Below are positions 20,010 to 58,809 of a stretch of DNA of 64,000 nt, in pieces. Under the pieces are notes generated by a model. It worked only from the letters and a program-made list of their open reading frames with translations. It made no database searches and had not been told where the DNA came from. Both the position numbers and the translations under genes were made by a program. Source of the DNA: Tachypleus tridentatus (lineage: Eukaryota > Arthropoda > Merostomata > Xiphosura > Limulidae); the NCBI RefSeq assembly GCF_004210375.1, contig NC_134832.1, positions 157,229,592 to 157,293,591 of the forward strand. The letters run 5' to 3'. Position 1 is the first letter of the stretch; the number at the start of each line of letters is the position of its first letter.

Positions 20010-21880
20010 CTTTAATAGCTTTGTTCTGGAGGTTGTGTAACCTTGATAATAAGTGGCTGGACATGTTACAAACATAGGTGTTGCCATATTCAAACAGAGG
20101 TCTGATATAGATCGTTAGAATGGTTTTGGCTGAGTAACCTTTATCTGGTCCACTGACGAGTTTCGAGAAATTGATTTTGATAATGTTATGGAAGTGTTGT
20201 TTTCATCATAAATTCTGGGAGAATGTGAGGCCTAAACATTTGCTTGTACTGGTAAAGTTGATTTTAGTATTGTTGAGATGCAGATTGGTGTTCTTGAATT
20301 TTTTCCTGTATTTATTTAATTTCTGACGGAACACGATAGCTTAGGTTTTAAAGTAGTTTAGGGTGACACGCCACTTGTCACACCATGGTGATATCGTGTT
20401 TAGCGTCTATTGGAATCTGATTGCAGCAGTGTGTAGGTTACTTGAGTGTTGCATATGGCTCTATCGTCAGCATACTGTGATGTTAACGTGTAGTTGAGGG
20501 GGAGAATGGTATATCGTTAACATAAATGTTGGACTGTACTAAGTACTGAACCTTAGGACAGTTGAAACTTGATTCGTGAATTTTAACCTTAGCTATACGA
20601 TTCGTGATAAAACTAGATATCCATCAGACAATCTGGGGTGGTAAACCTAAGGTGTGTGTTTTAAACCTGAGGCTATTGTGTCAGGCTGAATCAAAGGTCT
20701 CCTGAATGTCTTGAAAGGTGGCTTCTGTGGATTGTTAGCAATTGAAGCCGCGGTCAGTAAATCTAACAAGGTGGTCTATATATTGTTTGCCTGTTTCCTC
20801 TACCAGCGTTTTGGTTGTTACTTAATATTTTACTGGATCAAAGATAGCAATTATCTCTGTTGATTACTGCTTTCCTCATGAGTTTACCTAGGGTTTTGAG
20901 TAGACTAATCGGCCTATAATTACCAGAGTTTGTGAGATCATATTATCTTGTAGGTATTATCTTAATAATAGCTGCTTTCCAGGCTTTCGGGTAGAATACT
21001 GATAAGAATGAGAAGTTAAATATCAATACTGAATGGTTCAGGTTGGAATCACGGAAATTATTTAGTACATAATTACTAATGCCATCACCACCAGGTGATT
21101 TACGTTTAACTTTCTTTTACAGGTGTAATTGCTTACGACAGGTAACTGTGACGCGAAGAGGTCCAGGCTGGTGCTTACAAATTAATTAACATGGGTTAAA
21201 TGGGTTGGATCGAATAATGGGATATTCGGATGAAAGTGTTTTTAAAGTATTCGGCGAATACTTGAGACTGTTCTCTATCGGTAATGGCTGTGGTGTTATT
21301 GTATTTAATTTCGGGTAAGTTGCTATTGGATTAATATTAGTAATAGATTTGACCTTGCGCCAGGGTACGACTGATCTATAGATCCACAAAGATTGTTTCA
21401 CTTGTCCTCCTGATGAGGTTTTTGATTTGGTTATATACATTTGGCTGTATACATTCCTGGGGATAAGCATTTCGAGGTGTTATTGTTAAGGTGAATCCAA
21501 TCGGCGTGGGTGTGGTTGTATACTGGTGGGTCCAAAGTTATGTTACTTATGTGATTAGGGAAAATTGATAGAGAAATCACTTCCCATATTGTCATGGACT
21601 TTGAAACACATCTTGCTTGGGGCTATGGCAAGATCCAGGATGTATTCGGATCCATTGTGATGTGTCATCTGGTGAATGTGGTTTAGTTATAATCCTCTAA
21701 ATATTTGCGGAGTATTGAACGATTTGGGTTAGTGGTGCGGCAATTAAAGTCCGTTTGTTTACTGTTGAGATGACGGTGTTAGGGTGTAGATTACAGATAT
21801 CTTGGAACATGTTTTTGTGTCTGGTTTTTCTGTAGGAGATACACAAACGTTAATTAATTAATGCCAAACAATCCGTTCAC
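20010..21880 (-). pseudogene. Decayed Jockey/CR1-like LINE (endonuclease to reverse transcriptase)
   Basis: Reading the minus strand gives pieces of a non-LTR retrotransposon ORF2 in the expected order, broken by frameshifts and stops. Near 21570-21600 is an AP-endonuclease GSD motif (MGSDFSINFP, compare the GSDH motif of the family). At 21186-21470 is a 94-codon piece with the linker typical between endonuclease and RT (ITDREQSQVFAEYF in a shifted frame). At about 20510-20530 is NIYVNDIPFSPS. At 20463-20477 is the RT catalytic box QYADD. Towards 20300-20010 is the RT thumb region (LNKYRKKFK, CLGLTFSQNL, IRPLFEYGN). The copy stops at the satellite junction with no 3' end visible. The clade is inferred from motif style only. 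It is inactive. Confidence 0.85.
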
Positions 21881-34800: not shown

Positions 34801-37800
34801 AGCTGAGTTAGATCATCACATAATGATAATAGCTGTGTAAAGCTGAGTTAGATCATCACATAATGATAATAGCTGGGAATAGCTGTGTTAGAACTTCACA
34901 TAATGATAATAGCTGGGGAAAGCTGAGTTAGATCATCAAATAATGACAATAGTTGGGGAAAGCTGAGTTAGATCATTAGATAATGATAATAGCTGGGTAA
35001 AGCTGAGTTAGATCATCACATAATGATAATAGCTGGGTAAAGCTGAGTTAGATCATCACATAATGATAATAGCTGGGTAAAGCTGAGTTAGATCATCAAA
35101 TAATGATAATAGCTGGGTAAAGCTGAGTTAGATCATCAAATAATGACAATAGTTGGGGAAAGCTGAGTTAGATCACATAATGATAATAGCTGGGAATAGC
35201 TCTGTTAGAACATCACATAATGATAATAGCTGGGGAAAACTGAGTTCGATCATCACATAATGATAATAGCTGGGGAAAACTGAGTTCGATCATCACATAA
35301 TGATAATAGCTGGGGTAAAACAAATAGACAGAGTTGGGAGAAAAACTATTCAGCGAATATTCGCGTTTCTTCATCAATTTTCTGGACAGTAAAGTCGTGC
35401 TCGTGACCCTCTGCACAGGCTTGTGTTGATCTAGGTTTCGAAAATATGAGTTGTCGTCGTGAAGGGGGACGCAGGTATTGTGGTTGTGCATCTAATACTG
35501 AGTTATCATTTGGTTTCTCTATTGTCTGGTGAGATTTATGTCTTCTGGGTACTCTGCCTTGAGAGTTGGTGGGTTGCTTGTCTTTTATAGTAGTATTATC
35601 AGAACGCATGGTTTGCGTTTGGGCTGAAGTTTTTAGAATTGGGATGTTGAATGGCGCTTGAGTGAATTGGTTGTTGTTCTTCGTCTTGTTGTTCAGAGGT
35701 CATATAGTCCTTTGTCTGAGAGTGGCCATTTCTCTTGGTAGATGTTGTGCTTATTGACGGTTTCACGGGAGAGTGATAACCAAGCTTGTTGTTCTTGTAT
35801 GATTGTTGGTTAGACGGTGATTCGGTAGGTTCACTTCAGGTTGTGGTCTTGAGGGTTTAGAGGTTCGGGAATTGGCGGGACGGCAGTAAGGACGTTCGGC
35901 AGTAGAGTGAAATATATGGTAGTAGCACCCGTTATGTAAAACATGATGAGCAGTTTGGTTAGTAGTAGTTACGATCTTCATGAACCTGGTGGGTTGAGTA
36001 GACCTTTATACTATGAATAGTATATATATCAATCTTGTATTGGCTTTCCAAGGCTAGCTTGATTTCGCTAGGTTGGATAGATGTGTCAACACCTTGCTGG
36101 AAAACAGAGAACAGGCTGGTAGGGCTTTTGGTGGGAAAGCAGCTGACTTTGATGGTAGTATGGTTGTACTTAAAAATAGCTTTATACATGGTAACTGCCG
36201 TATTGGACCGATTATAAGGTGACATTTTTTGAGCAATAATTAAGCTGTAAACTTCATATTCGTATAATTGCGGCTGACAATAGACGCTGCCCCAACTCTA
36301 GCATGTTGCATTCTTAAAGGTCGAGATAATCGCTCTACGAATGCGCGCCAGATGTTAGCTCAAGGTTATCCCTAATTGTTGCAACCAATCCATCTTCTGG
36401 CTGTTCAGTTACAGTTATGATTATGTAGATTTAAGACTATAATATATATATATATAAGGCCTAAGAGTAAATAGGACGTCACAAAAGCACATGATTTTCA
36501 GTTGAATTAAGTCTAACCAAATATGTATACAGCAAAGAAAACGCGTAAAATAGGAATGGTGTGTAAGGTAATTTTAATATACTAATAAATAAATAAAAAC
36601 AATTGATAACTTGTGTTGCTGATTTCTTTCTAAAGGGAATACTTAGTGAAATATTAAGAATGCACTTGTCACAACTGAGATAAACAGACTGTTCAGAAGA
36701 CGATAAAAATTAACACAGATAAGGCCACAAAAGTAACCGGTCATATTTTGTTATGATAGTAGCTCGCATGTTCATATTAAAACTTTGTTCATCTAACTTT
36801 TAATATTTTTTCAAATCAACAGGAACTTCTTACAAATGCTATAAAAAAGTCTTGAAAGAGTTGAATTTTCTGCACCACTGTAAAGGTGTCTGTCGACAAC
36901 CGTGTAGGTAAGAAAAACTGTTCACACCAAGCTGAGTGATGTAGTTACTAAACATTTAGTTTGTGTTATTATTGTAAAGGTGTCTGTCGACAACCGTGTA
37001 GGTAAGAAAAACTGTTTACACCAAGCTGAGTGATGTAGTTACTAAACATTTAGTTTGTGTTATTATTGTAAAGGTGTCTGTCGACAACCGTGTAGGTAAG
37101 AAAAACTGTTTACACCAAGCTGAGTGATGTAGTTACTAAACATTTAATTTGTGTTATTATTGTAAAGACGTCTGTCGACAACCGTGTAGGTAAGAAAAAC
37201 TGTTTACACCAAGCTGAGTGATGTAGTTACTAAACATTTAGTTTGTGTTATTATTGTAAAGACGTCTGTCGACAACCGTGTAGGTAAGAAAAACTGTTCA
37301 CACCAAGCTGAGTGATGTAGTTACTAAACATTTAGTTTGTGTTATTATTGTAAAGGTGTCTGTCGACAACCGTGTAGGTAAGAAAAACTGTTTACACCAA
37401 GCTGAGTGATGTAGTTACTAAACATTTAGTTTGTGTTATTATTAAACTTCAATGAGCAGTTAATAATGTTATTACTAATATGATGTTAAATACTAAGTGG
37501 TAGTTAGTATACAAATAATTAGTTGTAATATTAGCTAAGCCATTAAACAGTTATTTAGTTTTGGTAATAAGTAAAACATGCTCCGATGAAGCTTATTTTT
37601 AAACTATAGGTTTGAATAGGTTATATTAAAGAATATTCATTCAGGAAATCACGCAACAACCGCAGTCAATATTAAGTCGTCACAGGGGAAAGGAATGCGT
37701 TAGAATTACAATTTACATTGTCTGGTTTTACGAAGGTAGTGTTATACCAGCGAAATGTGTTTGGTTTGAGGAAAATATGTAATAGCTTTTCCTATGCCAA

Positions 37801-39343
37801 ATATTCATATAACAGCTGGTGTCTCAGCCTTGGGAGGCAAAGTCACAAGGCAGAACCCACGTACCATAATGAATCGAGAAAGATCTTTGTGGAAAAACGA
37901 CGCCAACTTATTAGTGTTTCATCAAGATAAGGTTTCTAGCCATAGATACCTGCCATATACCTCACCATAAGGTTTCTAGCCATAGATATCTGCCATATAC
38001 CTCACCATAAGGTTTCTAGCCATAGATATCTGCCATATACCTCACCATAAGGTTTCTAGCCATAGATATCTGCCATATACCTCACCATCTTGGGAGTTAA
38101 ACAGATGTTGATGCTACTGGATACCGAGATAGAGCCTGACTTAATGAAGCTACATTAAATAATGGTAAGGTGACTTAAAATTTGGTATTTCACCAAAAAA
38201 TATTTTAAAATTCTAGGTTATGCCCTAACATCTCTACAGTGGTGTTGCATTAATATCGTTCAACTATTAAATATGGGAGCTAAACCATAACATAAAATGT
38301 TTCATTTGTTCTTAGTTAAAGACATAGCTACGAATTAGGCTATCTGTATTGTGCCCACTACGTGTATAAAAACCCGATTCCTAGTGCTGAGACACTAGGG
38401 CTTAAATGAAGAAACTCGTAAAATTTAAATAAAATTGAAAATATAGCAAAAACAAAGTCAAGAAAAGTATAAGTTTTTTTTTTTTATAAATCATGTTCTC
38501 TTTTAATATTCTGAAGGTAAACCTAGGGGATTAACGCCGACAGTTGCTAATGTGTTCCTTTTTGTCATGATTGTAACTGACTTCGTTTTAACCAGTGTAT
38601 AAGTAGTTAGTAGGTTAGCCGCTAGATGACATCATCCTTTGCTTCTTCTTTGTGGGTATTTGAGTATGTTTAATTTTTAAATACCCTGGTGGGTCAGGTG
38701 CACAAGACCTCTTCCTCCATCCCTAGCTTTCATGTCGGCTACTAGTAAGAATTTGTTGTTATTGTAGTGGTTTTGTGCCACAGTATCCCACAATACCCCG
38801 GCCCTTGTAAGAATTTGTTGTTATTGTAGTGGTTTGGGGCCACAGTATCCCACAGTATTCCAGCCCTTGTAATAATTTGTTGTTATTGTAGTGGTTTGGG
38901 GTCACAGTATCCCACAGTATTCCGGCCCTTGTAAGAATTTGTTGTTATTGTAGTGGTTTGGGGCCACAGTATCCTACAGTATTCCGGCCCTTGTAATAAT
39001 TTGTTGTTATTGTAGTGGTTTGGGGTCACAGTATCCCACAGTATTCCGGCCCTTGTAAGAATTTGTTGTTATTGTAGTGGTTTGGGGCCACAGTATCCTA
39101 CAGTATTCCGGCCCTTGTAAGAATTTGTTGTTATTGTAGTGGTTTTGGGCCAAAGTATCCCACAGTACTCCAGCCTTTGTAAGAATTTGTTGTTATTGTA
39201 ATGGTTTTGGGCCAAAGTATCCCACAATATTCCGGCCCTTTTCAGGGCAATGCCCATGTATTGTCTTGATTCCTTTCTTTTTACTTTTATTTAATTAATT
39301 ATTTATTTTTTACTTTTATTCGTATATATATATTTTTTTTCCA

Positions 39344-39376
<33 letters not shown>

Positions 39377-42300
39377 CTTATATATTTATCGGAAAAATAA
39401 AATAAAGTAAAATAAAAAGAAAGGAAAAGGAAAAATAAAATGGTAAAATAAATTAATACTAGTTTTAAGCGTCTAGTGCGTGTTGGCCAGCTTGATTTAT
39501 GTTTCTTAAATATATATTTATAGGAGAGAGGTAGTTAGGACAATGTTCATCACGTCTAGTGCATGGTGGCCAGCTTGATTTATGTTTCTTAAATATATAT
39601 TTATGGGAGAGAGGTACATAGGACTATGTTCATCACGTCTAGTGCATGGTGGCCAGCTTGATTTATGTTTCTTAAATATATATTTATAGGAGAGAGGTAG
39701 TTAGGACTATGTTCATCACGTCTAGTGCATGGTGGCCAGCTTGATTTACGTTTCTTAAATATATATTTATAGGAGAGAGATACTCAGGACTATTTACATA
39801 CTTGTACATGAATGTGGATGAAGTGCTACGTTGCTACGTGGTGCTTTATAGGCTGAAGTTGAAACTGAATTTTGTATTCTTTGTAGTTTCTGTAATTGTT
39901 TTTGTGTTTCGGTTATCCACGCAGGAGATGCGTATTCTATTATAGGTCTAATGTATGTTTTGTAGATTTTATTATATTATCAGGTAATGCACCTTGATTT
40001 TTACCTGAAAGACTTCTTGCATAATTTTCTCTCTTCCAGATTCTAGTCAGGATATTGTTTGTATGTTGTATCCACGTTGATTTGGTATCATAAGTTAATC
40101 CTAAAAATTTAGCAGAAGTAGCAGTCAGTAAAAGTGATCCGTTCATGTATAACTTTGGTGGATCTTTTTTCAGTTTATTTAATCTAGTGAATAGTATATT
40201 CTTACACTTAACATTACAGAGGGCTAATGAACCTTTTCAGTATTTGATGGCTCAATAGGAAATTATTTTCAACTTTTACGTTACTAGTTTCTTTTTTTGA
40301 TCGCATATTTATCGTTAAATACAACACAAAAAGTCATGTGCAGAATTTAACTTCTTGAAGGTGTCGTCATTTTGTACATAAGGAAATATAAGTATCGTCC
40401 ATTTTATTAATTGGGCAATTTTATCTCAAGAAAACATTCCTTTAACAGTACAAAAATATTTGATATTTATAAATAACAATATGTATGGAATACCAAGATT
40501 AAATATAGCTTTCCTAGAAGTTAATGTATAACTTTGTTATACTTCTGTCATTATAAGATTTATAAAAATTAAGTACAGTTCACTGTAGTAACGGTGATAT
40601 GCTTGTTAGTTTAACTTACCAAATGTTTGTAAACGGTTTTATAATTGTTATTGTAAGTCACCAATTGTTTGAAAACGGTTTTATAATTGTTATTGTAAGT
40701 CACCAAATGTTTGAAAATGGTTTTATAGTTGTTATTGTAAGTCACCAAATGCTTGAAAACGGTTTTATATTTGTTATTGTAAGTCACCAAATGTTTGAAA
40801 ACGGTTTTATAATTGTTAGTGTAAGTCACCAAATGTTTGAAAACGGTTTTATAATTGTTAGTGTAAGTCACCAAATGCTTGAAAACGGTTTTATATTTGT
40901 TGTTGTAAGTCACCAAATGTTTGAAAACGGTTTTATATTTGTTGTTGTGAGTCACCAAATGTTTGAAAACGGTTTTATATTTGTTATTGTAAGTCACCAA
41001 ATGTTGAAAAAGGGTTTTATAATTGTTAGTGTAAATCACCAAATGTTGAAAAAGGGTTTTATATTTGTTATTGTAAGTCACCAAATGTTGAAAAAGGGTT
41101 TTATAATTGTTAGTGTAAATCACCAAATGTTGAAAAAGGGTTTTATAATTGTTAGTGTAAATCACCAAATGTTGAAAAAGGGTTTTATAATTGTTATAAA
41201 AAGTCACCAAATGTTTGAAAACAGTGCTGTACTTGCTAGTTTGACTTATATTATGTTTAAATATTATTTTATACTTGTTAATTTAATGTTCCATATATTT
41301 AAGAGCGGTGTTATACTTTAGTTACACATACTGTAATTATTTTTTGTTTCATTTCTTACACATTGTTTTGTTTTAATACATACAGTTGTAATTAGTTATT
41401 ATGTATCTTTTATTCAGAAAAGTAACCTACGTCATAGAACAGGAAACGAGGGTCTGGCCTCTATCAAATGAAGAAGAAAAGGCAGGTTAAAATGATAACG
41501 TTCTATTTTGTAATGTCTGCCTGATGGTTCATTCTATGAATCTTTTAATACTTGTTTATAGCTATCTGCTTGGAACCTAAATCGCTTAAAGCGAGCAATA
41601 AAAACTGCTCTAAAGACAATATATTTTCCCCCAATACGCGTGTAGTTTGGAAGGGTTGGCAACGTCTTATTTAGATGAAATTTATTTAGAAACCTAAACA
41701 CAAATTTTTGTATTAATTCTAAAATATATTTTCTGGTTGCGTATCGGAAAGTCCAAGGGTGGAGGCGTAATATGTTGCTGAATATATCGCACACCTGTAA
41801 CTGTGAGAACGTTTAAAGTGTTGTAGTTAATCTGTATATGTGTGTTTTCTTATTAGGCTATCTGCTGACTCCACCGAGGGGAATCGAACCCCCTATTTTA
41901 GCGTTGTAAATCCATAGACTTACCGCTGTACAGGCTGGGGATTGCAATTAATCTCCCAGCCAAACTAATAGAATCCTAGTGGGTATCGCTGAGTTGTTGC
42001 ATTTTTTCAGTTAACTATTTTGAATTAAAGATAATTATTCCTGAACTTTGAGTTTCCTGATCTGACTGCTTAGCGTCTGTGTCGCAAATACGACTCATAA
42101 CTTATTTTTGGTCACTCAAGTAGAATATAATTTAATAGTAGGACGTTAACACTAGATGTTAAAAGAAGCCTATTTCATTTCGTATGAATATCTCTAAGAA
42201 TTATAAGCCGAAAACAGTTTGGCTGAAAAAAATAAAAAAAGAGCGGACAGGCAAAAGTGTTGTTCAACAAACAGCGACTAGAAGCTGTTGTACTCACTCC

Positions 42301-45300
42301 GCATGCACATGGTACAGACGCATCATTATTAACGCTAACTGGTATTACTATGCAATATTAAACGATTTTAATTAGGAAAATTTAAAAAAAATTAGCAAAT
42401 TTGCATTCATAAGTTGGCAATCAATAATGATTAATAACCGTTCAACTGTATGATTTTTTTTAAAAACTAGAATAAGAATCTGCTAATCCAGTTCCGCGCG
42501 AAGAAAAACAAAACAATAAAAATTGCAGATTTTATAACTCGTATGTTTCTGAATGGATTACCTTGAAATTCAGTATGTAAAGTACGTGTCTTGTAGAACA
42601 CTGAAAATATGAAGTACTTTGGTCTAACATAGTAAGAGATACAGAAAGTGGTAAGTTGCTAACCTGGTAATCCTAGTACTTTGGTCTAACATAGCATGAG
42701 GTACAGAAAGTGGTAAGTTGCTAACCTGGTAATCCTAGTACTTTGGTCTAACATAGCATGAGATACAGAAAGTGGTAAGTTGCTAACCTGGTAATCCTAG
42801 TACTTTGGTCTAACATAGTATGAGATACAGAAAGTGGTAAGTTGCTAACCTGGTAATCCTAGTACTTTGGTCTGACATAGTATGAGATACAGAAAGTGGT
42901 AAGTTGCTAACCTGGTAATCCTAGTACTTTGGTCTAACATAGTATGAGATACAGAAAGTGGTAAGTTGCTAACCTGGTAATCCTAGTACTTTGGTCTAAC
43001 ATAGCATGAGATACAGAAAGTGGTAAGTTGCTAACCTGGTAATCCTAGTACTTTGGTCTAACATAGTATGAGATACAGAAAGTGGTAAGTTGCTAACCTG
43101 GTAATCCTAGTACTTTGGTCTAACATAGCATGAGGTACAGAAAGTGGTAAGTTGCTAACCTGGTAATCCTAGTACTTTGGTCTAACATAGCATGAGATAC
43201 AGAAAGTGGTAAGTTGCTAACCTGGTAATCCTAGTACTTTGGTCTAACATAGTATGAGATACAGAAAGTGGTAAGTTGCTAACCTGGTAATCCTAGTACT
43301 TTGGTCTGACATAGTATGAGATACAGAAAGTGGTAAGTTGCTAACCTGGTAATCCTAGTACTTTGGTCTAACATAGTATGAGATACAGAAAGTGGTAAGT
43401 TGCTAACCTGGTAATCCTAGTACTTTGGTCTAACATAGCATGAGATACAGAAAGTGGTAAGTTGCTAACCTGGTAATCCTAGTACTTTGGTCTAACATAG
43501 TATGAGATACAGAAAGTGGTAAGTTGCTAACCTGGTAATCCTAGTACTTTGGTCTAACATAGTATGAGATACAGAAAGTGGTAAGTTGCTAACCTGGTAA
43601 TCCTAGTACTTTGGTCTGACATAGCATGAGATACAGAAAGTGGTAAGTTGCTAACCTGGTAGTCCTAGTACTTTGGTCTGACATAGCATGAGGTACAGAA
43701 AGTGGTAAGTTGCTAACCTGGTAATCCTAGTACTTTGGTCTAACATAGTATGAGATACAGAAAGTGGTAAGTTGCTAACCTGGTAATCCTAGTACTTTGG
43801 TCTAACATAGTATGAGATACAGAAAGTGGTAAGTTGCTAACCTGGTAATCCTAGTACTTTGGTCTAACATATCATGAGATACAGAAAGTGGTAAGTTGCT
43901 AACCTGGTAATCCTAGTACTTTGGTCTAACATAGTATGAAATACAGAAAGTGGTAAGTTGCTAACCTGGTAATCCCAGCATGGCCAGGGGGTTAGGCGCT
44001 CGACTCGTAATTTGAGGGTCGCTGGTTCGAATTCCTGTGGAGTAAACATGCCCTTTCAGCCGTGGGAGTGTTATAATGTGACAGTCAATCCCACTATTCG
44101 TTGGTAGAAGAATAGCCTAAGAGTTGGCGGTGGGTGGTGATGACTAGTTGCCTTTCCTCTAGTCTTACACTGCTAAATTAGGGACGGCTAGCGCAGATAA
44201 CCCTCGTGTAGATTTGCGCGAAATTAAAAAAACAACAAACAAACCTGGTACGATCACACACTGAGGTTGTTTTAGCCTCAGTATTGTCAGATATAATTAT
44301 TTTAATTTTACACACTAAGTCTATTTTAAAATGGGAGTATAATTCATAGTTAGAATATTTTATATGGGATGTTAATAAAAGAGTGGTTTTCACGTATATT
44401 TTCTAATATTTTGTAATTATACCTAATGTGAAGCCAGTTGAGTATAGAATTAATGATCGGTTTAATATTTCAGCTTAAAGTCATACTTTTGTATGGCCTA
44501 CAAGAAATAAAGAAAATCACATCTGAAAAAATTGATGACGAATTTATAAAGTAAGAATATTTTTGTATCGTTTGTTTTAATTTCACATGTTTCATATTTT
44601 ATTTCCAGAAACGTGTTTTCATGCTAAACATTTCCCCTAGTGATCTGTTGTAGATAACAGATAAATATGTACAAGTTAAACATTTATTCTATTGGTGTGT
44701 TGGTAGATGACGGAAATGTGTATAAGTTTATTCTACTGATCTCTTGTTGGATAATAGATATATGTGTAAAGTTAAATATTCAGGTGTTTGGCAACTGGTG
44801 TTGACCAGAAAAGTGGTTTTAATATTATCCTTAACATAATCAAAACAAGGTATCATTACGTGAAGTGTAATGCAGTTCCACTTTCAGTCATTGTTAGGTT
44901 AAGCACATCACAGAGTTATGTGTACAGGTGGTGTCGTGTCTATATTAGTCTAGTCACAGAGTTATGTATATAGGTGGTGTTTTGTCTGTATTAGACTACT
45001 ATAATGATTATTAGACCAATAAACACATTGCAAAGTATTTTACAGCTGGTGTTGTGTGTGTATTAACTAATATAATGATTGTTACACCAATAATTGCACT
45101 ACCAAACTATTTGTACAGCTAGTGTTATGTCTGTAATAGACTAATATATTGACTGTTAGACCAATAAGTGCATTACCAAACTATTTGCACATCTGGTGTC
45201 TCATCTCTATTTGTCCAGTATAATGATTGTTAGACCAAGAACCACATTGCCAAACTATTTGTACAGCTGGTGTTGTGCCTGTATTAGACTTGTGTAATGA

Positions 45301-46419
45301 TTATTAGACGAATAATCATGTTATGAACTGTTTGTACAGCTGGTGCTGTGTCTGAATCAGATGGTTTGAATAACTTTGACATTATATTTCAGACTTACTA
45401 AAATAAGTTGTAGTTTGACATAATCAATTACTTACATATTGAAAGTTCATTTAAAATGTGATATGTAAAAATATATACAACAGTGTGCACAAATCATGTT
45501 AAAAACTGTGTTTCAGGAATCAGCTGCTACTTGTTTCAATACATCCCAGCAAATCAGAGAGTCTTATCTACAGTTATTACCCAAGTTTTCAGGTATCTGT
45601 TGCCACGATAATTCTGTTTTATAAAGTATATTCCAGTTGTTGTACATCATAGCAAAATGTTTGTTTACAGATGAAATTCTATGCTTTGCATATAGAGATA
45701 AATTTCTAGCTTTTAGATACACAAGTTGAGTGCCTTCTTCTACATTATAAAATAGGTTTTAGATACTAGAAGTAAGCGTTAAGGAAACTTAACTTTGTTT
45801 CTAGAGGGATTATTAAATTGTTTATATACATTATTCAAAACTGTATATATTTTTATATTGAAATTCTTATATTTTGTCAGAATTTTCAATACCTTTAAAA
45901 TTTATAAATAAATATATTTTAAGTTCTATTTTAATGAAACGGTATTGTTTATCTAACAAAAGGATATAACAAAAATCTAATTTGATAAAGACACTTTAAG
46001 TAAGACAATATACTTTTTTTCAGATGATTACAAATTTGCCCTATTATTAAGTCTAAAATTAACTATGTACTGTTATCAATTTTAATATTCATCTTCATTT
46101 CCATGTTTTCATTTCTAAGGTATAAATAAATGATTTGTTAGATCAATGAAAATACAAATCATATTTACACTTTGTTTCATATCTGTTTTAGGACATTGAA
46201 CTTTTTGGCTACTTTGGGGGGTACCTAGGAATGTGGCTAGGTTTTTCGGTACTCAGTATATCAGACACTATTCTAACTCTACTTTCAAGGTTGTTCTCCA
46301 GATGTCACAAAAAGCAAGTAATAACGGATTCATCTAATAGTAATTACCAGAAGAATGTGGCCAAGGGCAGTAAACTTCACAAATCTATTTCAGTTATCAC
46401 TGTTACAGATTTTCCTTAG
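22689..46419 (+). CDS. DEG/ENaC (amiloride-sensitive) sodium channel subunit, 3' part, 8 exons
   Basis: The join is 22689-22846, 23623-23721, 26617-26731, 36823-36907, 41418-41485, 44481-44550 (or from 44474), 45517-45592 and 46192-46419. It gives about 300 codons with consistent phases and ends at TAG. Family members are trimeric plasma-membrane Na+ channels with two transmembrane helices and a large cysteine-rich ectodomain. Visible in order are a finger/thumb strand region (FHAPHVAPN), PPPYRTNC, a thumb with C-x3-C, further cysteines and HHCKGVCRQPC, the VWP element, and the pre-TM2/TM2 signature FGGYLGMWLGFSVLS. The signature contains the G-F-S selectivity filter. The N-terminus, HG gating motif and TM1 are not in view. 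The C-tail is basic and serine-rich. The exact subfamily (ASIC-, pickpocket- or degenerin-like) cannot be assigned by eye. An AATAAA lies at 46527-46532. Confidence 0.88.
22847..23622 (+). other. Intron A, unique sequence
   Basis: A 776-bp GT-AG intron that is AT-rich, with no repeat array or transposon that I recognise. The open frame 23530-23742 starts inside this intron and is only real coding sequence from 23623 to 23721. Confidence 0.75.
23623..23721 (+). CDS. DEG/ENaC gene 1, exon B (PPPYRTNC)
   Basis: The acceptor is AACTTACAACAG and the donor is AAT|GTAAAT. The exon is exactly 33 codons with phase 0 at both ends. It encodes RTALMLPPPYRTNCTNY and then a short loop ending LLDEN. The L-P-x-P-Y-x-x-N-C block is a hallmark at the start of the thumb cysteines in DEG/ENaC channels, and its Cys is the first of the conserved thumb set. 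Confidence 0.88.
23879..24071. repeat. 31-bp tandem repeat, ~6 copies (intron B)
   Basis: The unit is TGTTTTACTAATGTTGAGAT followed by AACACCTTCCC. Variants have CTTCAA at the end, and one copy has CTGATG for CTAATG. It lies 157 bp after exon B. Confidence 0.93.
24450..26560. repeat. Degenerate ~42-48-bp minisatellite in intron B, split by a MITE
   Basis: There are many diverged units built on TGTCTGTAAGTATTGTTAGT and TATGTTGTATGAGAGCTGTT, or TATGTTGTATGTTATCAAAT as the alternative half. Both half types are interleaved. The array is interrupted at 25297-25820 by a DNA-transposon insertion and decays towards the exon C acceptor. No coding content. Confidence 0.85.
25297..25820. mobile_element. 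524-bp non-autonomous pogo/Tigger-like DNA transposon (MITE)
   Basis: The left end CAGTGGAGCGCAGTTAAGCC is matched by an inverted right end: the complement of CCACGGTTTAATGGCGCTCC ACTG. The element is flanked by TA on both sides (25295-25296, 25821-25822). Both the TA target and the CAGTGGAGCG-type terminus fit the pogo/Tigger branch of Tc1-mariner. Internally it carries several GC-rich CCGCGG blocks, unlike the AT-rich surroundings, and no transposase frame. It sits within the intron B minisatellite. Confidence 0.85.
26617..26731 (+). CDS. DEG/ENaC gene 1, exon C (thumb cysteines)
   Basis: The acceptor is TTTTTCTACTTAG and the donor is AAAAG|GTAAAG. The exon has 38 codons plus 1 nt (phase 0 in, phase 1 out). 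It encodes LCVLECVANVTYKECGSLCV. The C-x3-C-x8-C spacing equals the C-x3-C-x8-C run of ASIC-type thumbs, but the usual C-G-C becomes C-G-S-L-C. Confidence 0.85.
26732..27748 (+). other. Start of intron C, unique AT-rich DNA
   Basis: Intron C is about 10.1 kb (26732-36822). This first part has no repeat or gene I can recognise. A 72-codon open frame at 27487-27705 has no family resemblance. Confidence 0.6.
27749..28032 (+). mobile_element. tRNA-derived SINE with 13-bp target-site duplication
   Basis: The body is 27762 to about 28019. The tRNA-like head contains an A-box-like TGGCCAAGCG and a B-box-like GGGTTCGCATCC. The family body follows (CGTTGGTAAAAGAGTAGCCC, GGTGATGACTAGCTGC, CTCTAGTCTTACACTGC), ending GTGCGAAATTCAAAAAACA. 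TATTATATATGAC occurs on both sides (27749-27761 and 28020-28032). Confidence 0.93.
28033..28837. other. Intron C, unique AT-rich DNA
   Basis: I see no gene, array or transposon. The 78-codon minus-strand frame at 27967-28203 overlaps the SINE tail and has no recognisable domain. Confidence 0.55.
28838..29195. repeat. 40-bp tandem repeat, ~9 copies (intron C)
   Basis: The unit is AGCAGCCAATTAGTAGCATC followed by CTCTGACCATACAGCTACAA. The copies are very similar, with C/T at CAGCC/CAGTC and CCATGC/CCATAC. The exact 40-bp spacing is seen at 28838, 28878 and 28918 and continues to the end. Confidence 0.96.
29196..29849. other. Intron C, unique sequence
   Basis: AT-rich with a somewhat more GC-rich patch near 29390-29570. 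No open frame or repeat stands out. Confidence 0.5.
29850..30555. repeat. TTA-rich compound micro/minisatellite
   Basis: About 700 bp made almost only of TTATTATTATTAGTTACTAG and related words (TAGTTATTATTAGTTTATTA), with irregular unit lengths. Typical replication-slippage DNA in the intron. Confidence 0.95.
30556..30884. other. Intron C, unique AT-rich DNA
   Basis: No feature recognised before the next SINE. Confidence 0.5.
30885..31143 (+). mobile_element. tRNA-derived SINE lacking its B box
   Basis: It begins GCCCAGCATGGCCAGGTGGG and has the standard family body and CGCGAAATAAAAAACAACAA tail. Within the tRNA-like head the sequence jumps from GTAATCCGAG to ACGCACC. Relative to the other copies here, about 22-24 bases, including the GGTTCGAATCC B-box segment, are missing. 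Confidence 0.92.
31144..31374. other. Intron C, unique sequence between two SINEs
   Basis: No feature recognised. Confidence 0.5.
31375..31640 (-). mobile_element. tRNA-derived SINE, minus strand
   Basis: This is the complement of the family: TTTGTTTGTTTTTGAATTTC GCGC at the low-coordinate (3') end, and AGGGATTCGAACCCGTGCG (the B box reversed) to CCTGGCCATGCCGGGCC at the high end. It has a complete head and body with a few differences. It lies 230 bp from the plus-strand SINE at 30885, in inverted orientation, so the two could form a long hairpin in the intron RNA. Confidence 0.94.
31641..32607. other. Intron C, ~970 bp unique AT-rich DNA
   Basis: No open frame of note, no repeat and no splice-flanked coding segment that I can recognise. 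Confidence 0.5.
32608..32890 (+). mobile_element. tRNA-derived SINE
   Basis: The head reads GACCAGCATAGCCAGGTGGC and then GGGTTCGCATTCGCGTCGC. The body is CCCACTATTCGTTGGTAAAA, GAGTAGCCCAAGAGTTGGCG and so on, ending CGCGAATTCAAAACAAATC. It has mutations in the B box. I did not find a clear target-site duplication. Confidence 0.93.
32891..33685. other. Intron C, unique sequence with a small duplication
   Basis: Mostly AT-rich unique DNA. A 20-bp direct duplication TAGCTCTCCAGTTGCACGTG / TAGCTCTCCAGTTGCACATG lies near 33331-33372. No coding signal recognised. Confidence 0.5.
33686..34415. repeat. 75-bp tandem repeat, ~10 copies (intron C)
   Basis: The unit starts AACAGGAAGAACGAGCTATA and includes GATGCTACATGAATTAAATC. 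It repeats exactly every 75 bp (33686, 33761, 33836 and on). The first copies are almost identical. A variant (AAGAGGAAAAACGAGC, TATATAAAAC) occupies two copies near 34210-34320, after which the main type returns. Confidence 0.96.
34450..34592. other. GC-rich island with a perfect 11-bp hairpin
   Basis: A short GC-rich block between two AT-rich arrays contains a run of nine or ten G (about 34507-34516), then GGGAGTACCCCGAGAAAAAC CCAC. It ends with a perfect inverted repeat: CACGTTCAGGG at 34547-34557 and CCCTGAACGTG at 34572-34582, with a 14-nt loop. The GGAGTACCC-GAGAAAACCCAC wording resembles a motif I recall being scattered through many animal genomes. Its function and identity here are uncertain. 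Confidence 0.6.
34593..35316. repeat. 40-bp tandem repeat, ~18 copies (intron C)
   Basis: The unit is GCTGGGTAAAGCTGAGTTAG followed by ATCATCACATAATGATAATA. Variants occur in groups: GGGGAAAGC, ATCATTAGAT, ATCAAATAATGACAAT, and GGGAATAGCTCTGTTAGAAC. Some variants recur at intervals, which suggests block duplications. The low-coordinate end of the minus-strand frame 35213-35491 is this repeat. Confidence 0.95.
35317..36430 (-). pseudogene. Unrecognised broken coding-like stretch
   Basis: The minus strand carries a chain of open pieces in different frames. From the 5' side: a piece near 36410-36350 reading VTEQPEDGLVATIRDNLELT, then 35959-36225 (with LFSVFQQGVDTSIQPSEIKL and LALESQYKI), then 35763-35981 (with HNGCYYHIF, and a proline/arginine/serine-rich tail), then 35346-35609 (basic, glutamine-rich, with RPPSRRQLIF). 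The order, amino-acid mix and basic tail would fit a retroelement ORF1/Gag-like relic, but no zinc knuckle or other diagnostic motif is visible. I do not recognise the family. It lies antisense within the channel's intron C. Confidence 0.4.
36431..36822. other. End of intron C
   Basis: AT-rich, with a short TATATATATATATA run near 36443. It ends in the acceptor CAAATCAACAG before exon D. No other feature. Confidence 0.55.
36823..36907 (+). CDS. DEG/ENaC gene 1, exon D (C-x3-C-x3-C)
   Basis: The acceptor is TTTTCAAATCAACAG and the donor is GTGTAG|GTAAGA. The exon is 85 nt: 2 nt completing the split Gly codon, 27 codons, then AG. It encodes TSYKCYKKVLKELNFLHHC then KGVCRQPC, the end of the thumb cysteine set; the family usually ends it C-x-C-x3-C. 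The split codon AG|A with exon E gives Arg. The last 29 nt and the donor belong to the first unit of a six-copy tandem repeat. Confidence 0.87.
36879..37442 (+). repeat. 94-bp tandem repeat carrying exon D end plus 5' splice site, 6 copies
   Basis: Units start at 36879, 36973, 37067, 37161, 37255 and 37349. Each contains TGTCTGTCGACAACCGTGTA then GGTAAGAAAAACTG, that is, 29 nt matching the 3' end of exon D followed by the GTAAG donor and 65 nt of intron. Two middle copies have GTAAAGACG in place of GTAAAGGTG. Copies 2-6 lack the exon D acceptor and the first 56 nt of the exon. Reading through the first donor gives TGT AGG TAA, an immediate stop. Confidence 0.96.
37443..37928. other. Intron D, unique sequence
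   Basis: A 70-codon open frame at 37718-37930 has no recognisable domain and no splice or initiation context that I trust. Otherwise AT-rich. Confidence 0.5.
37929..38088. repeat. 40-bp tandem repeat, 4 copies (intron D)
   Basis: The unit is AAGGTTTCTAGCCATAGATA followed by TCTGCCATATACCTCACCAT. The first copy has ATACC in place of ATATC; the others are identical, so the expansion is recent. Confidence 0.97.
38089..38744. other. Intron D, unique AT-rich DNA
   Basis: Nothing recognised. Confidence 0.5.
38745..39243. repeat. 62-bp tandem repeat, 8 copies (intron D)
   Basis: The unit begins GTAAGAATTTGTTGTTATTG, then TAGTGGTTTGGGGCCACAGT and ATCCCACAGTATTCCGGCCC TT. Copies start at 38745, 38807 and every 62 bp after. 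Note that each unit begins with a GTAAGA donor-like word. The minus-strand frame 39069-39257 is this repeat. Confidence 0.96.
39290..39470. repeat. AT microsatellite and A-rich low-complexity DNA
   Basis: Includes a run of about 14 TA dinucleotides near 39347-39374, flanked by TTTTATTTA and AAAATAAAGTAAAATAAAAA stretches. Confidence 0.9.
39470..39800. repeat. 83-bp tandem repeat, 4 copies (intron D)
   Basis: Units start with CGTCTAGTGCATGGTGGCCA at 39470, 39553, 39636 and 39719. They contain GCTTGATTTATGTTTCTTAA and end GGACTATGTTCATCA. The first copy is the most diverged. Confidence 0.95.
39800..40235 (-). pseudogene. LINE fragment (3' end of reverse transcriptase ORF)
   Basis: The minus strand reads ILFTRLNKLKKDPPKLYMNG, then AKFLGLTYDTKSTWIQHTNN, RSLSGKNQGALP, then in another frame IIEYASPAWITETQKQLQKL QRIQN. 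This is the RT thumb/C-terminal segment of Jockey-like LINEs (FLGLTFD, RSLSGKNWG, IEYASPVW). It is frameshifted near 39960. It covers the same domain as the left end of the LINE at 20010-21880 but differs in sequence, so it is a different copy or family. Confidence 0.85.
40236..40607. other. Intron D, unique AT-rich DNA
   Basis: Nothing recognised before the 42-bp array. Confidence 0.5.
40608..41240. repeat. 42-bp tandem repeat, ~15 copies (intron D)
   Basis: The unit is ACCAAATGTTTGAAAACGGT followed by TTTATAATTGTTATTGTAAG TC. A second block uses ATGTTGAAAAAGGG and GTGTAAATC. Because 42 is a multiple of 3 and no unit carries a stop in the relevant frames, both strands stay open (240 codons plus, 199 codons minus). 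These frames are not treated as genes because they lie between exons D and E of the channel and translate as a simple 14-residue repeat. Confidence 0.95.
41418..41485 (+). CDS. DEG/ENaC gene 1, exon E (VWP element)
   Basis: The acceptor is TGTATCTTTTATTCAG and the donor is GCAG|GTTAAA. The exon is 68 nt: 1 nt completing AG|A (Arg), 22 codons, 1 nt. It encodes KVTYVIEQETRVWPLSNEEE KA, matching the Y-x(n)-S/T-x-x-x-W-P stretch that follows the last thumb cysteine in the family. An alternative GC donor (AAG|GCAGGT, exon ending 41481) would give phase 0. Confidence 0.83.
41486..41854. other. Intron E, unique sequence
   Basis: The minus-strand 86-codon frame at 41534-41794 has no recognisable family and lies in the intron. 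Its composition is not repeat-like, so a retroelement scrap is possible but unproven. Confidence 0.45.
41855..41950 (-). mobile_element. Fragment of a second tRNA-like SINE family
   Basis: The complement carries a B-box-like GGGGTTCGATTCCCCTCGG. On the plus strand it reads GGGGAATCGAACCCCCTATT, GCGTTGTAAATCCATAGACT and TACCGCTGTACAGGCTGGGG. The layout (tRNA-like promoter in reverse, then CTGTACxAGCxGGGG) differs from the main SINE family here. Truncated. Confidence 0.65.
41951..42611. other. Intron E, unique AT-rich DNA
   Basis: A 63-codon frame (42184-42375) has no family resemblance. Nothing else. Confidence 0.5.
42612..43971. repeat. 62-bp tandem repeat, 22 copies (intron E)
   Basis: The unit starts AGTACTTTGGTCTAACATAG, contains ATACAGAAAGTGGTAAGTTG and ends CTAACCTGGTAATCCT. 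It is nearly homogeneous. Variation is almost confined to TATGAG/CATGAG, GATAC/GGTAC and CTAACA/CTGACA, combined in patterns that suggest multi-unit duplication. Each unit contains GTAAG (in GGTAAGTTGC), a donor-like word. The array ends at a SINE. Confidence 0.97.
43972..44241 (+). mobile_element. tRNA-derived SINE at the end of the 62-bp array
   Basis: The head has CCCAGCATGGCCAGGGGG and the B box GGTTCGAATTCC. The body includes CCCTTTCAGCCGTGGGAGTG and GCGGTGGGTGGTGATGACTA, with tail CGCGAAATTAAAAAAACAAC. Nine bases, AACCTGGTA, occur on both sides (43963-43971 and 44242-44250) and look like the target-site duplication. The left one is part of the array unit. Confidence 0.9.
44481..44550 (+). 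CDS. DEG/ENaC gene 1, exon F
   Basis: The donor is ATAAA|GTAAGA at 44551. It encodes ILLYGLQEIKKITSEKIDDE FI. The start is ambiguous. The best-looking acceptor is TTTAATATTTCAG|CTTAAAG at 44473, but if exon E uses its GT donor (phase 1) this gives G-CT TAA, a stop. Either the next AG (44479-44480, start 44481) is used with the GT donor, or exon E uses the GC donor at 41482 and this exon starts at 44474. The two choices differ by only a residue or two in the protein. Confidence 0.72.
44790..45370. repeat. Degenerate ~80-90-bp repeat (intron F)
   Basis: About six diverged units share TTTGTACAGCTGGTGTTGTG, a TCTGTATTAGACTA-like segment, and AATGATTGTTAGACCAATAA then ACCAAACTATT. It lies between exons F and G. 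It was probably an old minisatellite. Confidence 0.75.
45517..45592 (+). CDS. DEG/ENaC gene 1, exon G (pre-TM2 strand)
   Basis: The acceptor is CTGTGTTTCAG and the donor is TTTTCAG|GTATCT. The exon is 1 nt plus 25 codons (phase 2 in, phase 0 out). It encodes NQLLLVSIHPSKSESLIYSY YPSFQ, matching the N-x-x-x-L-x-V-x(n)-Y palm strand that leads into TM2 in the family. Confidence 0.86.
45593..46191 (+). other. Intron G
   Basis: A 599-bp GT-AG intron, AT-rich, ending CATATCTGTTTTAG. No repeat or other feature. Confidence 0.75.
46192..46419 (+). CDS. DEG/ENaC gene 1, terminal exon (TM2, G-F-S filter, C-tail)
   Basis: The acceptor is CTGTTTTAG. The exon has 75 codons, phase 0, and ends at TAG. It encodes DIELFGYFGGYLGMWLGFSV LSISDTILTLLS: the FGG-x-x-G-x-x-x-G-x-S-x-x-S TM2 signature with G-F-S as the selectivity filter. 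A basic tail of about 40 residues follows (RLFSRCHKKQ, SNSNYQKN, KGSKLHKS). The matching exon of the second gene (58648-58809) is 53 codons, so the tails differ. Confidence 0.95.
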   Translation, partial: DIELFGYFGGYLGMWLGFSVLSISDTILTLLSRLFSRCHKKQVITDSSNSNYQKNVAKGSKLHKSISVITVTDFP

Positions 46420-58647: not shown

Positions 58648-58809
58648 TCAATAGGCCGACTTTTCGTCATTCTTTTCTTCATTACGTTTTTTAAAGCATT
58701 TTATCGCCCAAGACCATAATGCACCCATGGCAATAGCTGCCACGCTCAGTACCGAGTAACCTACCCACATACCCAGGTAACCGCCAAAGTAGCTGAACAC
58801 CTCGATTTC
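58648..58809 (-). CDS. DEG/ENaC gene 2, terminal exon (TM2, G-Y-S filter)
   Basis: On the minus strand, an acceptor TTATAATATTACTATAG at 58810 is followed by 53 codons and TGA. It encodes EIEVFSYFGGYLGMWVGYSV LSVAAIAMGALW, then IKCFKKRNEEKNDEKSAY. The start point and phase match the terminal exon of gene 1 exactly, and the FGGYLGMW block is identical. The C-tail is shorter, lysine/glutamate-rich and unrelated. Upstream exons should lie at higher coordinates. I could not identify any before the right edge, so they may be beyond the window, or the copy may be truncated. Confidence 0.9.
   Translation of the reverse strand, partial: EIEVFSYFGGYLGMWVGYSVLSVAAIAMGALWSWAIKCFKKRNEEKNDEKSAY

Follow-up and report, generated by a model that had tools for sequence, protein, structure and literature searches.

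What does it mean for a gene when the end of one of its coding exons, together with the splice donor that closes it, is repeated in tandem? The question is raised by a 64,000-nucleotide (nt) stretch of the Tachypleus tridentatus genome (the window, whose positions are used throughout unless a C8, C19 or other coordinate is given). Here, a 94-bp unit that begins within an exon and runs on into the following intron recurs six times at 36879-37442.

The repeated donor and its exon

The array is reported by Tandem Repeats Finder (TRF) at 36879-37443 with a period of 94, 6.0 copies, 98% matches, 0% indels and a score of 1081. Unit-by-unit comparison agrees, so that the sixfold unit across exon end, donor and intron described in the original prediction stands. 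The predicted partition of the unit holds as well: the boundary at 36907|36908 divides it into 29 nt of the end of exon A (36879-36907) and 65 nt of intron, GTAAGA first. The features to which the argument refers are as follows.

36823-36907, forward strand: exon A of a DEG/ENaC gene, 85 nt, TSYKCYKKVLKELNFLHHCKGVCRQPC(R), with acceptor caacag|GAAC and donor TAG|GTAAGA; its last 29 nt open repeat unit 1
36879-37442, forward strand: the array of six 94-bp units, each 29 nt of exon end and 65 nt of intron from the donor (TRF and unit comparison)
36907-36908, forward strand: donor 1 (TAG|GTAAGA), the sole donor in frame into exon B (reading frame and site comparison)
36973-37442, forward strand: units 2-6, whose five donors repeat donor 1 exactly, with introns starting at 37002, 37096, 37190, 37284 and 37378
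36980-37001, forward strand: possible 22-nt microexon of unit 2, following TTATTATTGTAAAG, its acceptor with A at -3
37074-37095, 37168-37189, 37262-37283 and 37356-37377, forward strand: the same possible microexon in units 3-6
41418-41481, forward strand: exon B (RKVTYVIEQETRVWPLSNEEEK), with an apparent GC donor, AAG|GCAGGT (homology to paralogues)
44474-44550, forward strand: exon C (LKVILLYGLQEIKKITSEKIDDEFI(K)), placed by reading frame and splice sites, without a paralogue match
45517-45592, forward strand: exon D (NQLLLVSIHPSKSESLIYSYYPSFQ; homology to paralogues)
46192-46419, forward strand: exon E, the last exon (DIELFGYFGGYLGMWLGFS...TDFP, stop; homology to paralogues)

The six-copy array is not a chance resemblance, given the 98% likeness of its units and the presence of the same unit twice in a second copy of the gene. 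Measured against the unit of that second copy, units 1 to 6 differ at 1, 0, 1, 2, 3 and 0 positions, with units 2 and 6 exactly like both units found there. The AC variant seen in unit 4 and the C variant seen in unit 1 occur together in unit 5, a sign that units have exchanged sequence. The predicted secondary structure of exon plus array has a z of -2.28 against 20 shuffles, none of which was equally stable, values that pairing between repeat units could give.

The exon from which the unit was copied belongs to an ion channel, as originally proposed. Joined through donor 1, exons A-E stay open for 175 residues, counted from exon A, and end in a terminal TAG. Their product belongs to the DEG/ENaC family (ASC, PF00858), matching the Pfam profile at 4.1e-13 with 49.6 bits against a cut-off of 23.6; it also matches an FMRFamide-gated Na+ channel of known structure in the PDB (2.9e-8). 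We take the motif of exon E to be the second transmembrane part of the channel. Keeping the frame requires the GC donor of exon B (41482), which both gene copies share and whose position was deduced by following the reading frame and by comparison with the translated exon length of the paralogue L067; the GT four bases further on would shift the frame. A protein search with exon A in its own genome returned 13 places, of which 12 lie on C8 (153.97-157.69 Mb) and one, weak, on C3 (E 7.4). Read in gene orientation and counting the window copy, 11 of the 12 on C8 end in CRQPCR and one in CRQSCR, and all 12 keep the donor TAG|GTAAG. Exon A is thus real, since its 11 other C8 copies retain both exon end and donor, and the donor within the repeated unit is a genuine coding-exon donor that leads in frame into exon B.

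All six donors are one and the same 9-mer, TAG|GTAAGA, so that the five later ones are as intact as the original prediction supposed and site scoring ranks all six equally, at 7/9 matches to CAGGTAAGT. Their computed consequences are anything but equal. Donor 1 closes exon A at 85 nt, while donors 2-6 would extend it by 94n nt, to 179, 273, 367, 461 and 555 nt, and each of these extensions reads ...CRQPCR followed by TAA. The expectation that the first donor alone preserves the frame, with TAA soon after it is passed over, is borne out by these computed products. For the predicted microexon the outcome is mixed: the exon-like piece is present behind GTAAAG in units 2-6, though at 22 nt instead of the claimed 20. 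Its inclusion would yield ...CRQPCR(C/R)LSTTV and then an in-frame TAG, and at -3 its acceptor carries an A, a position held by C or T in the acceptors of exons A-E.

Donor array aside, the interval between exons A and B contains just one more donor-like site matching at 7/9. The intron after exon B, by contrast, holds a 62-bp array with 22 donor-like GTG|GTAAGT sites that also match at 7/9, so strong decoys as such are not special in this gene.

Two gene copies and their minisatellites

A near-identical copy of the gene lies 497 kb away, where the array region matches C8:156769299-156769487 at 99% and contains the unit twice. In the remaining ten copies of exon A, the donor region occurs once within each locus of ~3 kb. 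Variability in the number of units is therefore likely, six in one and two in the other of two near-identical gene copies. The two can be aligned from window position 20011 to ~49000, and in TRF-free stretches they differ at 273 of 18,624 non-coding positions (1.47%). Their exons, once the array-borne 29 nt of exon A had been masked, differ at 2 of 501 positions (one-sided Fisher P 0.023 against the non-coding count).

The minisatellites of the two copies were compared with TRF at a uniform setting, counting arrays with a period of at least 10 after removal of overlaps. The window copy has 24 such arrays and the other copy 26, which could be paired by eye, from period and order, into 19 pairs; 15 of these by-eye pairs differ by about one unit or more. 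In window and other copy, respectively, the counts are 3.0 and 5.0 for a 74-bp array, 9.2 and 19.2 at 40 bp, 9.8 and 13.8 at 75 bp, 22.0 and 3.0 at 62 bp, and 6.0 and 2.0 for the 94-bp donor array itself. Four pairs differ by less than that (19 bp, 2.2/2.2; 44 bp, 17.7/17.6; 62 bp, 8.0/8.0; 29 bp, 3.0/2.5), and five arrays of the window copy and seven of the other are unpaired; a 35-bp array of the other copy is listed at period 70 and extends past the end of the sequence retrieved. With 15 of 19 paired arrays differing at 1.5% divergence, the donor array looks like ordinary minisatellite turnover of the kind that its neighbors undergo. The changed 62-bp array is the one in the intron after exon B (42613-43975). 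Just past the donor of exon C, the other gene copy carries a 105-bp stretch twice (C8:156775353-156775565) that is single in the window (44550 region).

Near-identical tandem units are hard to assemble, and two gene copies that are 1.5% diverged could be two haplotypes placed in a row; the extra units might on these grounds have been made by the assembler. The flanks of the array are gap-free within 36000-38400, however, individual units have substitutions of their own, and two units occupy the equivalent place at a second locus, which makes an outright artefact unlikely. The pair itself is either a recent segmental duplication or a second haplotype assembled in tandem. The sequence that precedes the two gene copies recurs in 99% copies at C19:64843417, C19:64965804 and C19:65006400, themselves either a segmental duplication or a misplaced contig; these related pieces mildly favor duplication for the gene pair.

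The same comparison bears on a regulatory role. The copied donors could compete with donor 1, or the microexons act as poison exons, so that channel output would be tuned through nonsense-mediated decay with copy number as the dose. The intactness of the five later donors and the stop in every computed alternative are what such a role would call for. Yet two of the six units (2 and 6) show no difference from either unit of the other copy, so the intact donors may merely reflect youth; moreover, the number of units differs threefold between the two gene copies, ten other copies of exon A do without an array, and adjoining minisatellites vary in a similar way. In human ABCA7, the isoform that retains one repeat unit is reported not to change with the length of the repeat (PMC5954066). 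Regulation by decoys is accordingly an unlikely account of the array.

A larger difference between the copies concerns their 5′ part. The other gene copy has an exon for the first transmembrane segment (TM1) at C8:156727193. Among the 58 matches listed, this exon has no close counterpart near the window gene, and the nearest upstream match on the same strand is at C8:157025608, with 53%; the sole near-identical second copy of the TM1 stretch is at C19:64843417. Of the transmembrane helices, the window gene has the last exon, with the C-terminal part of the profile (46192-46419), and a TM1 exon was not found nearby. Where the upstream intron would be expected lies a 47-bp satellite, with more than 420 copies in the window (2-20011), that extends at least 7.6 kb further upstream, to at least C8:157222001; of two probes placed farther up, that at 157218001 matches the satellite, whereas that at 157214001 no longer does. 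The other copy has a high-copy repeat that stops ~35 bases short of the point equivalent to window position 20011, where matches to a 711-base query cease around its base 682. The six-copy gene may thus be 5′-incomplete, or else the assembly is incomplete there, and claims about its function are weakened because the TM1 exon was not found beside it.

The six-copy gene could be a 5′-incomplete duplicate without a functional channel, its array being debris of no consequence for splicing, with the two-unit copy and its upstream TM1 as the working gene. Both the lack of a close TM1 counterpart among the listed matches and the satellite in the place of the upstream intron argue for this. On the other side, exons A-E are open and have kept their splice sites, and the low divergence of the exons hints weakly at constraint on one copy or both. 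Furthermore, the duplicated block may extend beyond the satellite, as C8:157210001 and C8:156739839 match at 97%, but the match is to a many-copy repeat family; if the block does continue upstream, the absence of TM1 could be a gap in assembly or search. A dead duplicate is possible, albeit doubtful on this balance.

Arrays at exons elsewhere in the genome

Do exons of this genome commonly tolerate such arrays? A sample of 65 exon loci, taken from four match lists (30 of 82, 13 of 13, 16 of 28 and 6 of 25 matches), suggests the opposite. TRF arrays make up 11.9% of the 209,724 bases in these loci, and random placement would bring 12.3 ± 2.9 of the 65 matched stretches into contact with an array (within 6 nt). 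The number observed is four, namely both gene copies, L028 and L066, a count equaled or undercut in 0.2% of 2000 draws. The test covers the matched stretch only and misses exon borders farther out; its loci are not independent, and one of them (L046) is the weak C3 match. Arrays are thus rarer at matched exons than chance would have them, and an array across an exon is not usually tolerated in this genome. A copied donor occurs in the set in this gene and its copy only.

The two remaining contacts were considered as splice-site arrays and rejected. At L028 (C13:248624602, minus strand), which is a copy of a DEG/ENaC exon, a 52-bp array of 10 copies touches the start of the exon and offers CAG in several units, as an acceptor array might. 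Its relatives L006, L007, L009 and L010 extend the exon upstream with no intron at that place, so the exon is a truncated one, broken inside and joined to the array. At L066 (C4:94849802), a 61-bp array of 4.1 copies (1623-1871) covers the end of the coding sequence and the stop codon in another last exon of the DEG/ENaC family, and no splice site. An apparent excess of donor-like motifs among the window's minisatellites fared no better. A 7/9 motif is present in 5 of 36 arrays on the gene strand and 2 of 36 on the other, where single-base shuffles predict 1.28 per strand; three of the five (26137, 26244 and 26374) belong to one repeat family, and the excess is not counted as evidence.

Other parts of the window gave side observations. 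The last exon of another DEG/ENaC gene lies at 58681-58809 on the minus strand, with an equal-score match at C8:157117856, and reading frames at 39794-40236, also on the minus strand, resemble what we presume to be pieces of a non-LTR reverse transcriptase. A search against plasmids, made as a check for contamination, gave no match. Three of six hemocyanin exon loci were set against the PDB, and their best matches are chelicerate hemocyanins, from horseshoe crab and scorpion, which marks the genome as chelicerate-like.

Origin of the array among known systems

In its structure the array, with a tandem unit of 94 bp within the ~10-100 bp range of minisatellites, is a splice-donor minisatellite, a type already known from human genes. 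The closest parallel is ABCA7, whose intron 18 holds a 25-bp variable-number repeat that includes the donor of exon 18 (PMC5954066). Like the array of the window, it starts at a genuine coding-exon donor and repeats it, and use of the next donor, retaining one unit, shifts the frame. In ABCA7, the unit starts at the donor GT, without an exon part or a microexon, and is present in ~12 to 427 copies; polymorphism and isoforms were measured there. Two frameshifting events amount to 14 ± 6 and 2 ± 1%, the latter being the retention of one unit, and it is skipping of exon 19, not unit retention, that rose with repeat length (PMC5954066). A minisatellite that supplies several splice donors is also found in IFI6 (6-16, G1P3), where two downstream repeat units serve as donors according to the passage that cites Turri et al. 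1995 (PMC4526556). The 94-bp unit of the window differs in placing a stop behind every later donor. The IFI6 unit is a short one that keeps the frame. Since ABCA7 and IFI6 are already in the literature, and a neighboring minisatellite of the same gene offers 22 equal-scoring sites, the earlier description of the array as unusual was too strong.

Two further systems tie border-spanning repeats to the birth of introns. Human segmental duplications contain internal tandem repeats that span exon-intron borders, differ in number between recent paralogues, as here, and include novel introns backed by transcripts (PMC2812944). In potato RdRp, an intron was gained through a tandem duplication across an intron-exon border that, again as here, took splicing signals along; there the duplication crosses the first intron and second exon, on the acceptor side, and the new intron was detected, where the window has the donor side and a putative intron (PMC4974935).

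Can the array, then, be an intron in the making? TAG|GTAAG stands at every unit, so that AG|GT flanks the duplicated stretch on either side, and what lies between two donors is a 94-nt GT...AG proto-intron. Splicing from donor 1 to the TAG of a later unit would drop whole units, recreate the donor and leave a normal mRNA, a scarless ratchet. Border-spanning tandem duplication is a published route to new introns (PMC4974935; PMC2812944), and the TAG acceptor has T at -3 and, by a crude count, pyrimidines at 9 of the 17 positions from -20 to -4, equal to the acceptor of exon D. Only 4 of the 17 bases are U, however, a count that ranges from 8 to 11 for the acceptors of exons A-E, and TAAAG already places an AG 22 nt upstream of the TAG. 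The case for it is weak, and we regard such scarless removal as distinctly improbable; its stricter form, in which five proto-introns of 94 nt flanked by AG|GTAAG would be excised singly and without a scar before the real intron, is very improbable. If true, it would give normal mRNA at any copy number and would be intron birth by repeat expansion under way.

The reading that we favor, with a probability of roughly 0.65, is a neutral splice-donor minisatellite; neutral turnover that hit an exon border is the most likely origin of the array. One 94-bp tandem duplication would by chance have crossed the border between exon A and its intron, and unequal exchange would then have expanded or contracted the array like many minisatellites of the locus. 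U1 and exon definition would mostly choose donor 1, presumably because it yields an exon of 85 nt while the others yield 179 to 555 nt. Donor 2 may be used occasionally, and its product, ending at ...CRQPCR-stop, would lose the rest of the channel including the second transmembrane helix and would be removed by nonsense-mediated decay. No function need be invoked to account for the array. The observations behind this reading are the array itself, the conserved exon, the six identical donors, the two versus six units and the stops behind all other donors; by analogy, the dominance of donor 1 would be in line with ABCA7, where retention of one unit is the rarer of the two frameshifting events. 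Three points weigh against it. Arrays at matched exons fall below the random expectation (4 versus 12.3 of 65), and the window gene may fail to produce a complete channel. Where donors have been duplicated in classical test substrates, the one closest to the downstream acceptor can win, which would favor a late donor and counts against the dominance of donor 1. Mis-splicing at the six-donor exon is possible.

With this array an arthropod ion-channel gene joins the published human cases, and no claim is made that arthropod cases are absent from print. Near-identical gene copies within one genome, one with two and the other with six identical competing donors, offer a natural dose series for studying how the spliceosome picks one of several equal donors, and the same pair bears on whether minisatellites that span exon borders seed new introns.
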